A stretch of DNA of 7,508 nucleotides from an uncultured Lachnospiraceae bacterium. GTDB taxonomy: Bacteria > Bacillota_A > Clostridia > Lachnospirales > Lachnospiraceae. The DNA lies in contig CAMYVI010000123.1 of NCBI GenBank assembly GCA_947302185.1, forward strand, positions 1 through 7,508, in the 5' to 3' direction. The position numbers were made by a program, and so were the translations under genes. Shown piece by piece: positions 899-7,442 of this stretch. The notes beneath the pieces are model-generated. The model was given only the letters and a program-made list of their open reading frames with translations, was not told the DNA's origin and made no database searches. Position 1 is the first letter of the stretch, and every line of letters starts with the position of its first letter.

Positions 899-926
899 TT
901 CGCAGAGTCAAAAATTATTGTATAAT
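899..926 (+). promoter_or_regulatory. Predicted promoter for the peptide/phosphatase genes
   Basis: A perfect TATAAT (921-926) has TTCGCA (899-904, four of six matches to TTGACA) 16 bases upstream. Transcription would begin near 933, giving a leader of about 78 bases before the small peptide gene at 1011. The leader includes two copies of ACATGT (978-983 and 990-995) just ahead of the ribosome site. The TATAAT overlaps a TTGACA at 926-931 that has no partner -10. Confidence 0.5.
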
Positions 927-1010: not shown

Positions 1011-1229
1011 ATGTCAAACGAGAATATGAATATTGCTAACGACCAGGTTGAGGCCGCAAAGAAACTTTCTGACGAGAAATTAAGACATGTTATCGGCGGC
1101 TTAGCCGTAAGCGATGAACAGATTGAAGAGTTATTCGATGACTTAGAGGGCGGCAGCGAGGACGAAGAGCTTGTCGGAAAACGCGGACCGGGCGCAACGC
1201 GCAAGAAACAGGGTCCAATCTTTCTGTAA
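1011..1229 (+). CDS. Small peptide with double-glycine-type leader (putative secreted RiPP/bacteriocin-like or signal peptide)
   Basis: Encodes 72 residues after a strong AAAGGAG ribosome site. Residues 19-30 read LSDEKLRHVIGG, which fits the double-glycine leader pattern of peptides exported by C39-peptidase ABC transporters: Leu at -12, Ser at -11, Leu at -7, Val at -4, Gly at -2 and -1. Cleavage after Gly30 would release 42 residues. A second, weaker acidic-helix-plus-GG block ends at residue 48 (DDLEGG); cutting there would leave a 24-residue tail, acidic at its start and basic towards the end (KRGPGATRKKQGPIFL). There is no Cys and almost no Ser/Thr after residue 30, so a lanthipeptide or disulfide bacteriocin is unlikely. 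No transporter, peptidase, immunity or modification gene is nearby, so export would need genes elsewhere. It lies 50 bases before the sensor phosphatase with no terminator between, so co-transcription is plausible. It is real as a gene on ribosome site, promoter and codon structure; the function is inferred from the leader only. An alternative is a small acidic non-secreted protein. Confidence 0.75.
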   Translation: MSNENMNIANDQVEAAKKLSDEKLRHVIGGLAVSDEQIEELFDDLEGGSEDEELVGKRGPGATRKKQGPIFL

Positions 1230-1279
1230 TTCATTCCTGCATAAGTAACTGTCCATGATAAATACGCGGGGGTATTTGC

Positions 1280-2905
1280 ATGAAAATAAAGCTGCGGGAA
1301 AGAATTCTTCTTATCGTGATAATCACAGTTCTGGTGATTGGTATTCTGCTTATCAGATTAACCAGCACATCGTTCCGTGATCAATATATAGAACTGTACC
1401 GCGCTGAAACACTGGAAACGCTTAACATCCTCGCCGCTGATATCGACGGGGATGCTATTGTTTCTATGATTGAAAGCGGCGAGAAAGGTCCGGAATATGA
1501 TGCTCTGCTCGAGCGTTTCAATGAGGTAAAAGAAGAGTCGATCGATATGGACTTTCTGTATCTGGTCGTCCCTTATGATACCTATTTTGTCTATGTTCTG
1601 GAAGCGCAGGCCACAAGGGATGATCCCAGCGTGATAGCACAGTTCGGAGAGACCTATGATTACACGGATTTTGACTATGAAATGTTTCTCCCGGATGTAA
1701 AGCAGGCAAAGGCATCCGACAAACCGATCTCAGTCTCTTATGGTGGGGAATCGTTTGAGGACTCATTTACAGTCTGGACTCCCGTCCTCGATTCCAACGG
1801 CAATACAGCAGCCATGATAGAATCAGATACCAATCTGCACCGCGTAAACATTCTGATTTTCAATCTTATTAGACGGATCACTATCATTATGGCAATCCTG
1901 CTCATCATTCTCATAACACTGTTGCTGATCACTCTGAGCAACACTGTCGTCCATCCGATCCGTGCCCTGACGAAAGAAGTGGATTCCTATGAAAACGGGC
2001 ATTATAAGAATAGTAATTACCGTTTTATTTTCGATGATGAGATAAAGCGACTGTCCGATTCTTTCCACGATATGATGAACAAAATCGATTACTATATCGA
2101 AGAGAGAGCCAAAGAAGCAGTCGAAAAAGAGCATTTTATAGCTGAGCTTTCACTGGCAGCCAGAATTCAGGGAAATTATCTGCCGAATGTTTTTCCGGCT
2201 TTCCCTGAAAGGCATGATTTCGATATCTACGCTACCATGACGCCGGCCAAAAATGTCGGCGGAGATTTCTATGACTTCTTCATGCCGGACGAAGACCATA
2301 TCTATCTTGTTATTGCCGATGTTTCCGGCAAGGGAATTCCTGCATCCCTTTTCATGATGGTATCCAGAATGGCGATCCGCAATGCAGCCCAGTTCGAGAC
2401 GCTTCCGTCACGCATTCTTATGAATGCCAATCAGCACATAATAGAGAACAACCCCGAGAACATGTTCGTAACCGTGTGGCTCGGCTGTGTGGAGCTCTCC
2501 ACCGGTAAGCTGACTTATGCAAATGCAGGCCACTCTCGCACGCTCCTATACAACGGTGGTGTCTGGGAATATGTCGAGACACGCTGCGGGCTTCCTCTCG
2601 CGGCTATAGAATTTTCCCGCTATCGCGACTACGATCTTATGCTTGAAAAGGGAAGCTTCCTCTTCCAGTATACGGACGGCGTGACTGAGGCAGAACGTGA
2701 GGATGCGAGTCAGTATGGCAAAGAGCGCCTGTTAGAAGCCGCCAAACAGCTGACCACATTGAATCCGCAGGAGGTCCTGACGGAAATCAGGAAAAAGGTC
2801 GATGAGTTCGTGGACGGTGCGCCGCAATTCGACGATCTAACCATGCTTGGTTTCTACTATATCGGCAATGAGGCGGAAGGTGAGGAAACACCGGAGAATG
2901 TATGA
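1280..2905 (+). CDS. Membrane sensor PP2C phosphatase, SpoIIE/RsbU class, with HAMP domain
   Basis: A 541-residue transmembrane Ser/Thr phosphatase. TM1 is about residues 8-27, followed by an extracellular sensor region of about 165 residues (Cache-like by size and position, not confirmed). TM2 is about 198-220, then a HAMP segment with the typical HPIRALT start (225-231) to about 270, a coiled linker with AARIQGNYLP (293-302), and a C-terminal PP2C domain (about 310-530). The metal-ligand acidic motifs are all present: NVGGDFYDF (Asp329), ADVSGKGIPAS (Asp347), YTDGVTEAE (Asp466) and QFDDLTML (Asp518/519), so it should be active. Family members typically dephosphorylate STAS-domain anti-anti-sigma proteins, releasing a sigma factor or other output in response to an outside signal. 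No STAS or anti-sigma kinase gene is in the window, so the partner is unknown. The ribosome site is weak (GGGGGT, 1268-1273), consistent with a downstream operon position. Confidence 0.93.
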   Translation: MKIKLRERILLIVIITVLVIGILLIRLTSTSFRDQYIELYRAETLETLNILAADIDGDAIVSMIESGEKGPEYDALLERFNEVKEESIDMDFLYLVVPYDTYFVYVLEAQATRDDPSVIAQFGETYDYTDFDYEMFLPDVKQAKASDKPISVSYGGESFEDSFTVWTPVLDSNGNTAAMIESDTNLHRVNILIFNLIRRITIIMAILLIILITLLLITLSNTVVHPIRALTKEVDSYENGHYKNSNYRFIFDDEIKRLSDSFHDMMNKIDYYIEERAKEAVEKEHFIAELSLAARIQGNYLPNVFPAFPERHDFDIYATMTPAKNVGGDFYDFFMPDEDHIYLVIADVSGKGIPASLFMMVSRMAIRNAAQFETLPSRILMNANQHIIENNPENMFVTVWLGCVELSTGKLTYANAGHSRTLLYNGGVWEYVETRCGLPLAAIEFSRYRDYDLMLEKGSFLFQYTDGVTEAEREDASQYGKERLLEAAKQLTTLNPQEVLTEIRKKVDEFVDGAPQFDDLTMLGFYYIGNEAEGEETPENV

Positions 2906-2949
2906 TTGTGCAGAAAAAACAGCAGTGATCCGTAATCGACTTCCGGCGA

Positions 2950-3080
2950 GTGAATTATAATTATCGGAAAGTGAATCATTATCATTGACCTTGTGAATCA
3001 TTATCATTGACCGAGTGAATCATTATCATTGACCGAGTGAATCAGTATCATTAACTCAGTGAATCATAATTATTAACTCA
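2950..3080. repeat. Tandem 22-base direct repeats (five copies plus one degenerate)
   Basis: Five end-to-end 22-base units start at 2971, 2993, 3015, 3037 and 3059, each beginning GTGAATCA. The second and third are identical; the first differs in its last two bases. The fourth and fifth share the ending TTAACTCA. A degenerate 21-base relative starts at 2950 (GTGAATTATAATTATC). Core: GTGAATCATTATCATTGACC. There are no spacers, so this is not CRISPR. The last unit's ACTCA is part of the left arm of the terminator. The array lies between two convergent genes, so it is not in a promoter. Confidence 0.95.
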
Positions 3081-3210: not shown

Positions 3211-3214
3211 GTCT

Positions 3215-3292
3215 CCGGCAGATTGCAGACGCTCATCCATCCGGCGGGTTGCAGACGCTCATCTATCCGGCGGGTTGCAGACGCTCATCTAT
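3215..3292. repeat. Three 26-base direct repeats abutting the thioesterase stop codon
   Basis: Units at 3215-3240, 3241-3266 and 3267-3292 are contiguous. The second and third are identical; the first differs at three positions (AGA for GGG shows two, and CC for CT one). Core: GGTTGCAGACGCTCATC. The last base of the third unit is also the last base of the thioesterase TAA stop (3292-3294). Unit length is not a multiple of three, so it is not a coding repeat. Confidence 0.95.
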
Positions 3293-4210: not shown

Positions 4211-6223
4211 GTGAAGAATCGGAGAAACAAGAAATCGTTACATGACCAGTTGATGTATTATTTCGACCTCTGGCTGTCCAAAGGAACAGTCTCTATGGTC
4301 ATTTTACTGTTCGCAATAACAGGCCTGATTGTCTTTATTTTGTCACTTTTGGTGATTGCTTTCGGAGGGCAGGATGCGTCCCTGACCGGTGCACTTTGGA
4401 ATACGCTAAACCATGCATTTGACCCGGGCGTCCTTTCCGGTGATGTAGGAAACCGTATCTTTCTTTTCATCATGCTCCTTGCAACCCTGTGCGGAGTTTT
4501 TTTCATGGCACTGCTGATAGGTCTGATCAATGATGGTATTTCAAGCCGCATGCAGGAACTTGCGAAAGGAATTGAAGCAGTAATCGAGAAAGACCACGTA
4601 GTCATCCTGGGGTTCAACGAATCTACTTTTCTGATTATAAGCGAACTGATAGAAGCCTATGAAAATCAGAAAGGGAAGCGCAATGCAGTGGTCGTTATGG
4701 ATACCGGTGATAAGCTTGAGATGGAAGAGCGTATTCGTTCTCAGTTCCCTTATATGGGGAATCTGACGGTCGTGTGCAGAAGCGGATTCATCTTTAACAA
4801 GACCGATCTGGAACGCTGCTCGATAAACACCGGCAAGTCTATTATTATTGTTGCGGAAAATGACTTCGATACAATAAAATCCATTCTTGCATGTTCTCAG
4901 ATGCTGAATGAAACTAACGATTCAAAGACATTTATAACTTCGGTAATCAATCATAAAGAGAATGAATTTGCAGCAAGAATAGCAGGAAATGATACAGATC
5001 TGAGCAAATCCGTATATTCTCTCAACGGGGATCGCCTGGAGCTTTTGATGATGGATAGCATCATTTCAAAGATAATGGCGCACACCTGCCGGCAAAACGG
5101 ATTTTCGAAAGTTCTCACAGAGATATTCAACTTTTTCGGAAATGAGTTTTATATTGTCCGGAATGAAAACGAGAATTCTGAGTTTTTCAGTAAAATGAAA
5201 GGGAAGACGATACAGGAGATCAATCGGTGTCTTCCCGATTCGATTGTTGTAGGTTTAGTTGATAATGAGAATCAGGTCATCATAGACGACCCGAATAAAG
5301 TAATCCTTCAGAATGAAAACAGATTAATTGTTCTGGAAGAGGATGATGATAAGATAATATTTGAAGCCGAACAGCAATCTGTGTTTAATCGTCCCATCGA
5401 ATTGTACAATACAAACCCCGTTTCTATCGTTATAATGGAGTGTAACTCCAAACTTCCTATGATTCTGAATGAGCTTTGCCATTATATAAGTCCCGGCTCT
5501 ATCATTTATCTCGCTGCAGATCCTAATGAATTGAACAAGACAGTAAATGATAAGCTCATCAACCGATTGCTGGGGCATGATATTGATTCTGCTATCCGTA
5601 TAAGAAGAGGACTATCCGATACCGGCAGCGAAAATGAAAATTATGATATTTATGATTATGCAAGCATGGAAAAGCTTCTCGATGAATGCCATCCGGATTA
5701 TGTCCTTACTATGTCAAACCAAAATCTTAATGACGATATGGCTGATGAAAAATCCCTCACTCTGCTGCTTTATTGCAGACATTATAAGATGCTGCATCCG
5801 AATGCTCATTTTGGTATTACCTGCGAGATGAGAAGCGTAGTAAATCAAAGCCTGGCTCAGGATACTATGGCCAATGACTTCGTAATCAGCAGAAATATTG
5901 CTTCACTTATGATGTCTCAGATAGCTGAGAGTCGAGAACTAAAGAGTGTATTTGAGACATTGCTTAACTCGGAAGGCTTTGAGATTTACATGAAGCCTGT
6001 AAAGTACTATATGGATGTGAAAGAGGGAATTACGACCAATATTTATGCCATTGCTGAAGCAGTAGCTGCTAAGAGAGAAATATTCATCGGATACAAGCTG
6101 AAGTCAGATGGAGGACCTATACTCAATCCTGCAAAGAAGAAGTATGGCAAAATAATCACAGTAGAGCTTTCCCCGGAGGACCTGTTCGTTGTTCTTGCGG
6201 AAGAGCCGGAAGTGCCGGTGTAA
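4211..6223 (+). CDS. CASTOR/POLLUX-like ion channel with cytoplasmic RCK-type NAD-binding region
   Basis: A 670-residue membrane protein related to the plant CASTOR/POLLUX (DMI1) cation channels and their bacterial homologues. It starts at GTG, 7 bases after GAGGGG. Residues 11-25 (HDQLMYYFDLWLSKG) match the family's conserved pre-TM segment; TM1 is about 26-52. A pore segment, WNTLNHAFDPGVLSGDVGNR (63-82), has a D-x-G-N element comparable to the plant filter, and TM2 is about 83-107, followed by DGISSRMQELAKG. The cytoplasmic part holds a Rossmann-like start, HVVILGFNES (129-138), with an acidic VVMDTG (161-166), a middle region, and a second weaker domain from about 403 (VSIVIMECN). DFVISRNIASLMMSQIAES (556-574) is typical of the family's C-terminal half. 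The stop is a tandem TAATAA. It probably conducts cations (K+ or Ca2+ in relatives) under ligand control; selectivity and ligand cannot be read from sequence. It stands alone, divergent from the thioesterase. Confidence 0.88.
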   Translation: MKNRRNKKSLHDQLMYYFDLWLSKGTVSMVILLFAITGLIVFILSLLVIAFGGQDASLTGALWNTLNHAFDPGVLSGDVGNRIFLFIMLLATLCGVFFMALLIGLINDGISSRMQELAKGIEAVIEKDHVVILGFNESTFLIISELIEAYENQKGKRNAVVVMDTGDKLEMEERIRSQFPYMGNLTVVCRSGFIFNKTDLERCSINTGKSIIIVAENDFDTIKSILACSQMLNETNDSKTFITSVINHKENEFAARIAGNDTDLSKSVYSLNGDRLELLMMDSIISKIMAHTCRQNGFSKVLTEIFNFFGNEFYIVRNENENSEFFSKMKGKTIQEINRCLPDSIVVGLVDNENQVIIDDPNKVILQNENRLIVLEEDDDKIIFEAEQQSVFNRPIELYNTNPVSIVIMECNSKLPMILNELCHYISPGSIIYLAADPNELNKTVNDKLINRLLGHDIDSAIRIRRGLSDTGSENENYDIYDYASMEKLLDECHPDYVLTMSNQNLNDDMADEKSLTLLLYCRHYKMLHPNAHFGITCEMRSVVNQSLAQDTMANDFVISRNIASLMMSQIAESRELKSVFETLLNSEGFEIYMKPVKYYMDVKEGITTNIYAIAEAVAAKREIFIGYKLKSDGGPILNPAKKKYGKIITVELSPEDLFVVLAEEPEVPV

Positions 6224-6288: not shown

Positions 6289-6300
6289 GATTTCATCTTC

Positions 6301-6420
6301 CACATTCAACTAACCATCTTCGGCACTATAAATCATTTTACACATTCATCGAATGACCTTAGGCACTATATTTCTTTTTGTACATTCATCGAACGACCTT
6401 GGTCACTATAATTCTGCTTC
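6301..6420. repeat. Three 40-base direct repeats upstream of the acetyltransferase
   Basis: Units at 6301-6340, 6341-6380 and 6381-6420 are exactly 40 bases each; the first is the most diverged. All share ACATTCA near the start and CACTATA in the second half. The second and third also share ATTCATCGAAYGACCTT. Each unit carries a TATA-type box (TATAAA, TATATT, TATAAT at about 6327, 6367 and 6407). The second has a small inverted repeat CATTC-ATC-GAATG. The last box, perfect TATAAT at 6407-6412, is 38 bases before the start codon and is the likeliest -10 for the gene, although its -35 is weak. Confidence 0.9.
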
Positions 6421-7065: not shown

Positions 7066-7081
7066 TTTTGCACTCCGCTAA

Positions 7082-7163
7082 CTGCTTTTTGTTACTTGAA
7101 CTTCCCACATGAAGTCGGCTTACTGCTCTTTATTACTTGAGCTTCTCATATGAAGTCGGCTTA
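7082..7163. repeat. Two 41-base direct repeats after the acetyltransferase
   Basis: Units 7082-7122 and 7123-7163 are contiguous and differ at six positions; the first 10-13 bases (CTGCTCTTTATAT) begin a third copy at 7164. Common core: ATGAAGTCGGCTTA. Each unit has a small hairpin, ACTTC-CCACAT-GAAGT (7100-7115) in the first and CTTC-TCATAT-GAAG in the second. They start 16 bases after the stop codon, and no standard terminator is visible, so they may serve as 3'-end structure. Confidence 0.88.
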
Positions 7164-7301: not shown

Positions 7302-7442
7302 ATGTTCCGTAAAATCAGAAGAGTTAAGAATGAAATATCAGAAGAAGCTGCAAAAGAACTGCTTCGAAAGAACAGAAGGGGCGCTCTTGCTGTAAACGGC
7401 TACCCCTATGCCATCCCGATTGATTTCTATTATGAGGAATAG
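7302..7442 (+). pseudogene. N-terminal fragment of a pyridoxamine-phosphate-oxidase/NimA-like flavoprotein
   Basis: A 46-codon frame with a good AGGAG site (7291-7295) and a TATAAT (7276-7281) just upstream. The translation MFRKIRRVKNEISEEAA, then RGALAVNGYPYAIPIDFYY, matches the first third of the FMN-binding PNPOx-like/NimA family (about 150 residues), from the start to the second beta strand. It stops at TAG after YYEE, where relatives continue with a short loop and the next strand (typically xxIYFHxAxxGHK). The usual GDDGYPY loop is also two residues short. Sequence after the stop does not resume the family in the same frame; the bases just after it (GGTTAGAATA) could reflect a small indel. 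It is therefore most likely a decayed gene, or a sequence error, rather than a functional small protein. The remainder of the window, to 7508, has no supportable gene. Confidence 0.6.

Follow-up and report, generated by a model that had tools for sequence, protein, structure and literature searches.

A candidate orphan double-glycine peptide gene of a narrow Lachnospiraceae clade lies beside a Cache-PP2C phosphatase gene

Does a small gene that ends 50 nt upstream of a membrane phosphatase gene encode the secreted signal of that phosphatase, or are the two simply neighbors? The question is raised by a 7,508-nt stretch of DNA from an uncultured Lachnospiraceae bacterium (contig CAMYVI010000123.1; the whole stretch analyzed is called the window here), for which the original prediction, made from the letters alone, proposed an uncommon layout in which a secreted double-glycine peptide is sensed by a SpoIIE-type phosphatase. 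The reading favored here, with a probability of about 0.6, is that the product of the small gene is an orphan double-glycine peptide that is exported and belongs to a narrow Lachnospiraceae clade, and that the Cache-PP2C phosphatase beside it is independently controlled. Comparison is mainly with two sister loci, L001 of genome G001 (Lachnospiraceae metagenome-assembled genome RGIG2452, from goat ileum) and L111 of genome G426, which are near relatives of each other and count as one lineage against that of the window. Coordinates of the features discussed are given in Table 1.

The small gene does carry the double-glycine leader that had been predicted for it. Residues 19-30 of its product, LSDEKLRHVIGG, present the hydrophobic C39 anchors L(-12), L(-7) and V(-4) followed by GG at -2/-1, and the peptide scores 15.9 bits against NCBIfam TIGR01847 "bacteriocin_sig" (cut-off 15.7). 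All 11 aligned peptides of the family have hydrophobic residues at -4, -7 and -12 together with GG at -2/-1, and the particular residues L19, L24, V27, G29 and G30 are invariant among them. In the Lachnospiraceae C39 protease LahT150, leader positions -4, -7 and -12 occupy a hydrophobic groove, and changes at -4 and -7 impair cleavage, according to PMC6363468. Leader-like motifs are rare, being present in 16 of 3970 small open reading frames (ORFs) on the + strand of 80 related loci and, by a somewhat different rule, in 15 of 1422 small ORFs on both strands of 44 loci (both counts include orthologs of this peptide). The alternative cut after Gly48 that had also been suggested is dropped as unsupported, because the second GG (residues 47-48) occurs only in the window peptide, the 10 others in the alignment having GE or GD there. 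The TATAAT of the likely peptide promoter and its flanking sequence are kept in L001 and L111. A small cytoplasmic protein with a coincidental GG that is not exported would agree with the strongly acidic segment after the GG and with the fact that TIGR01847 is matched by one of the 11 family members, the window's own, and by none of the others at E 0.1, but the invariant C39 anchors and the C39 exporters of both sister genomes (see below) speak against it, and this explanation seems very improbable.

The peptide gene is real and conserved, but narrowly distributed. It is beyond chance because orthologs occur in two other genomes; that of L001 (5233-5451) is 60% identical to the window peptide, and the ratio of nonsynonymous to synonymous change (dN/dS) is 0.22 between the window and L001 and 0.29 between the window and L111, at a dS of about 1, which is near saturation. 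With the peptide alone as query, a set of 5.8 billion proteins yielded no match but its own cluster; a three-sequence profile found nine proteins, eight of them new metagenomic ones. Among 42 genomes of the genus, 18 match at E≤1 and two, G001 and G426, do so at full length (the L001 peptide formed part of this query); 3 of 397 genomes match in a sample of the family, with a full-length peptide in G001 only, and 1 of 392, again G001, in a sample of the order. The partial, low-scoring matches (2 of the 3 family genomes, 16 of the 18 genus genomes and an extra G426 row; E 0.004-0.98) are taken as chance. The plasmid and phage collections contain no match to the peptide, and a scan of viral contigs gave four pattern matches, none of them related to the phosphatase. 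The window peptide has no Pfam match above cut-off, the family matches only the generic leader model and none of the NHLP-leader models in NCBIfam, and its PHROG matches, at E 0.0065 (4 of 11 members, function not given) and 0.019 (1 of 11), were set aside as uninformative. Even without any pairing with the phosphatase, then, the peptides form a family with no match above cut-off in Pfam, none to an informative PHROG and none in NCBIfam beyond its generic leader model.

The build of this peptide, a credible new orphan cargo of the double-glycine kind, is unusual: a conserved leader and an acidic spacer precede a tail that varies inside one clade. In all 10 full-length peptides the segment after the leader has a net charge of -9 to -11 and is followed by a basic tail of +3 to +5, which is likely the active part. 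Among nine full-length homologs (a set that leaves out the window peptide as an outgroup and P0129 as truncated), 1 of 30 leader columns, 7 of 26 middle columns and 10 of 18 tail columns are variable (p ~0.001 by column shuffle, relatedness ignored). An unmodified antimicrobial, either a class II-like bacteriocin or microcin-like, could have such a build, with the basic tail active, the acidic segment silencing it and the phosphatase a mere neighbor; the variable tail within the L001-type clade and the naming of NHLP exporters for bacteriocin export would both fit. Against this, no immunity-like gene is present among the four other window proteins scanned, although immunity proteins without a Pfam model would escape such a scan, and no bacteriocin family is matched beyond the leader model; an antimicrobial of this type appears unlikely. 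The peptide is like double-glycine (C39/PCAT) peptides of the TIGR01847 type in its L-12, L-7, V-4 and GG residues, its small precursor and the C39 exporters of its sister genomes, and unlike them in the very acidic pro-segment before a short basic tail, in matching the curated leader model only, and in having a nonadjacent exporter and a cleavage site that is predicted.

The expected C39 exporter elsewhere in the genome was found in both sister genomes, away from the peptide locus. The single C39 match of G001 lies in a 730-residue peptidase-ABC protein (TIGR03796, 890 bits; cut-off 853) that adjoins a second ABC protein just under its cut-off (TIGR03797, 700 versus 709 bits), and G426 has the same two ABC genes plus a second C39 system. 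The peptidase-ABC protein and ABC2-type subunit of G001 resemble NHLP/NHLM bacteriocin export (TIGR03796/03797/03794); the marginal ABC2 score, the short HlyD partner described below, the lack of a precursor gene seen beside the G001 operon and the lack of an NHLP-leader match for the peptide are differences. No double-glycine ORF lies beside the G001 exporter in the stretch fetched, which begins at a contig end, and none was found near the second G426 C39 system; two motif matches near the first G426 exporter copy are antisense to other genes. A C39 match is present in 25 of the 42 genus genomes (24 above cut-off) versus a full-length peptide in two, so the exporters are far commoner than the peptide, and the arrangement agrees with the notion that cargo encoded elsewhere on the chromosome can be served by an NHLP exporter beside which no precursor gene is seen. 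A different contig of G001 has another small gene (L110 1297-1563, 88 amino acids) with a double-glycine-like leader.

The phosphatase gene is intact, as had been stated, and its product has the PP2C fold and SpoIIE signature (Pfam SpoIIE, 156 bits). Its transmembrane helices are placed from sequence and model, and the HAMP stretch scores 16.9 bits, under the cut-off of 25. A fold search with the predicted structure of the extracellular sensor indicates a Cache/PDC-like fold; the window sensor domain has no Pfam match, and dCache_1 is matched by 6 of 20 aligned members. Foldseek places two chains of IclR-type regulators at the top for the modeled sensor; these are read as sharing a PAS/GAF-like fold and not as kin. 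A fold search with the full-length model mostly probed the PP2C domain. The Cache fold is usual for small-molecule receptors. In domain order, catalytic domain and fold the protein is like RsbU/SpoIIE PP2C phosphatases with an extracellular Cache sensor; the double-glycine peptide gene just upstream and a window that has no STAS/anti-sigma gene are unlike them. When species genomes were scanned with a profile of seven phosphatase sequences (61-98% identical), the best 80 of at least 573 relatives were the L001 protein, at 84% identity, and 79 others at 32-48% over the best segment. The metagenomic phosphatase clusters P0006-P0008 are 61-75% identical.

Might the exported peptide nevertheless bind the extracellular domain of the adjacent phosphatase and switch a STAS/anti-sigma output? 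The peptide gene precedes the same phosphatase gene in all three loci with readable context (the window, L001 and L111), and the peptide occurs together with an 83%-identical orthologous phosphatase in two of the 42 genus genomes, although a phosphatase match of E≤1e-50 is present in 31 of the 42. Also in favor of such a pair are the greater divergence between the window and L001 of the extracellular domain (76% identical) than of the PP2C domain (93%), the absence of a called terminator from the 50-nt gap of the window, and the STAS and RsbW-type domains of the sister genomes. The conserved block also holds FNT (93%), thioesterase (95%) and acetyltransferase (94%) genes, however, and six other stretches of the genus around the thioesterase gene (4.7-12 kb, some reaching contig ends) contain no other window genes, neither peptide nor phosphatase. 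Because the neighbors share the block and the block is absent from those six stretches, the linkage reflects one clade; adjacency and co-occurrence are thus confounded by kinship and say little about function.

The pair was not found to be kept outside that clade. Among the 80 phosphatase loci of the genome scan, 76 have at least 250 bp upstream, and 75 of these lack a credible leader peptide there, L001 being the exception (motif matches upstream of the L033 and L055 phosphatases were dropped by eye as non-leaders). Of the 36 loci that were examinable in a further set of 44 phosphatase loci (drawn in part from the same genomes), 34 have no match and two are this same peptide pair. Within G001 and G426 themselves, none of 14 other phosphatase regions (seven each) has a double-glycine ORF upstream. 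The idea that homologs of the peptide precede SpoIIE phosphatases therefore holds for the three readable loci of one clade, and the other SpoIIE genes examined have no credible double-glycine peptide upstream.

The DNA between the two genes also bears on the question. As the original prediction had it, the 50-nt gap of the window has no called terminator; its fold z is -0.78, and it lacks the long hairpin of the sister loci. In the L001 and G426 loci a long terminator-like hairpin lies between the genes (z -6.65 and -7.37, respectively); it ends in GGCTTTTTG and is directly followed by the -10-like box TGCTATAAT in both L001 and L111. The hairpin would appear to act as a terminator. With hairpin and box lying between the two genes in L001 as in L111, co-transcription would not be a trait common to the three loci; it is possible in the window. 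A second, short hairpin, whose loop contains the phosphatase ribosome site, is identical in all three loci, with one exact site each in G001 and G426, at the phosphatase start. Its fold z is -3.07 in the window and -3.35 in L001, 2 of 200 window shuffles contain a match with no more than one mismatch, and translational control or an operator are possible roles.

Candidates for the proposed partner-switching output exist in both sister genomes, where STAS has four matches each and HATPase_c_2 (RsbW-type) has four in G001 and nine in G426 (several under the family cut-off). None of these is on a contig of this locus, and a Pfam scan of the window finds no STAS or anti-sigma gene. Taken with the separating signals of the sister loci, the 14 regions that lack an upstream peptide, the Cache-like fold of the sensor and the one-clade block, this makes a signaling pair rather unlikely; the peptide gene and its adjacency are genuine, and the pairing is weakly supported by little beyond adjacency in one clade. 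A circuit confined to that clade, in which the NHLP-matured peptide binds to the Cache-like domain of the neighboring SpoIIE enzyme and thereby sets off partner switching, is decidedly unlikely; if it existed, the clade's differing tails would represent distinct signal types. Double-glycine peptide genes adjoin membrane sensor genes in the peptide pheromone and histidine kinase systems ComC/ComD and BlpC/BlpH, and the present locus is like these in that respect; it is unlike them in that a Ser/Thr phosphatase bearing a Cache-like domain takes the place of the kinase, the sister loci have separating signals, and neither an exporter nor a regulator is linked to the locus. If the pairing were true, exported peptides would act upstream of partner-switching phosphatases instead of histidine kinases; no report of such a pair is present among the matches listed from the open-licence literature (titles and abstract starts).

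Under the favored reading of an orphan exported peptide beside an independently controlled phosphatase, an unlinked C39 (NHLP-type) ABC exporter would recognize the leader and cut after Gly30, releasing a 42-residue product made up of the acidic 26-residue pro-segment and the basic 16-residue tail. The tail, which ends in G-[GP]-IF[LF], is probably the part with an extracellular role, whether as a signal or an antimicrobial. The phosphatase would be an ordinary Cache-HAMP-PP2C receptor of the RsbU/SpoIIE type that has a translation hairpin to itself and, as it appears in the sister species, a separate promoter. Its ligand is probably a small molecule, and the protein that it dephosphorylates is probably an unlinked one of the STAS type.

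Several results weigh against this reading, in addition to the sparse matching of TIGR01847. A consensus scanner does not call a terminator in the L001 gap, calls one on the - strand only in the L111 gap, and in neither locus lists a promoter with the TGCTATAAT box as its -10 element. Because L001 and L111 are near relatives, the separating hairpin is to be counted as the trait of one lineage, and it may have been either lost by the window or gained by the sisters. With the window peptide added, 14 of 30 leader, 14 of 26 middle and 13 of 18 tail columns vary, and identity between the window and L001 is highest in the tail (75%), the leader being 53% and the middle 55% identical, so the variability of the tail is limited to the L001-type clade. 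Finally, the evidence for an exporter comes from the two sister genomes and not from that of the window, and the HlyD partner in G001 is an 81-residue ORF (L082 4691-4936) that resembles the HlyD N-terminus and scores 29 bits against a cut-off of 156.

Table 1. Positions in the window of the peptide gene, the phosphatase gene and associated features
Feature	Position	Strand	Basis or remark
-10 box TATAAT, likely peptide promoter	921..926	+	Promoter scan 899-926, 10/12 matches
Peptide ORF, 72 amino acids	1011-1229	+	AAAGGAG ribosome site; leader at residues 19-30
Double-glycine leader, residues 1-30, ending LSDEKLRHVIGG; C39 cut predicted after Gly30	1011..1100	+	TIGR01847 match; invariant anchors
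Acidic pro-segment, residues 31-56, net charge -11	1101..1178	+	Alignment, charge count
Basic C-terminal tail KRGPGATRKKQGPIFL, residues 57-72, net charge +5, plus stop codon	1179..1229	+	Alignment, charge count; putative role
Hairpin AAATAC-GCGGGG-GTATTT, phosphatase ribosome site in loop, just 5' of phosphatase ATG	1260..1277	+	Identical at L001 5574-5591 and L111 3182-3199
Membrane SpoIIE/PP2C phosphatase, 541 amino acids: transmembrane helix, Cache-like extracellular domain, transmembrane helix and HAMP-like stretch, PP2C	1280..2905	+	SpoIIE 156 bits; models

The remainder of the window has several other features. A CASTOR/POLLUX-like channel gene (4211-6223) lies between the thioesterase and acetyltransferase genes; it is unmatched in L001 and L111, which have an ORF of 161-185 amino acids at that place instead. 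A short ORF near the window end (7302-7442) stops after 46 codons and has no Pfam match. Short tandem repeats of about 22, 26, 40 and 41 nt fill the intergenic gaps at 2947-3079, 3214-3292, 6293-6412 and 7069-7150, and other repeats are present by eye near the matching gap positions in L001 and L111.
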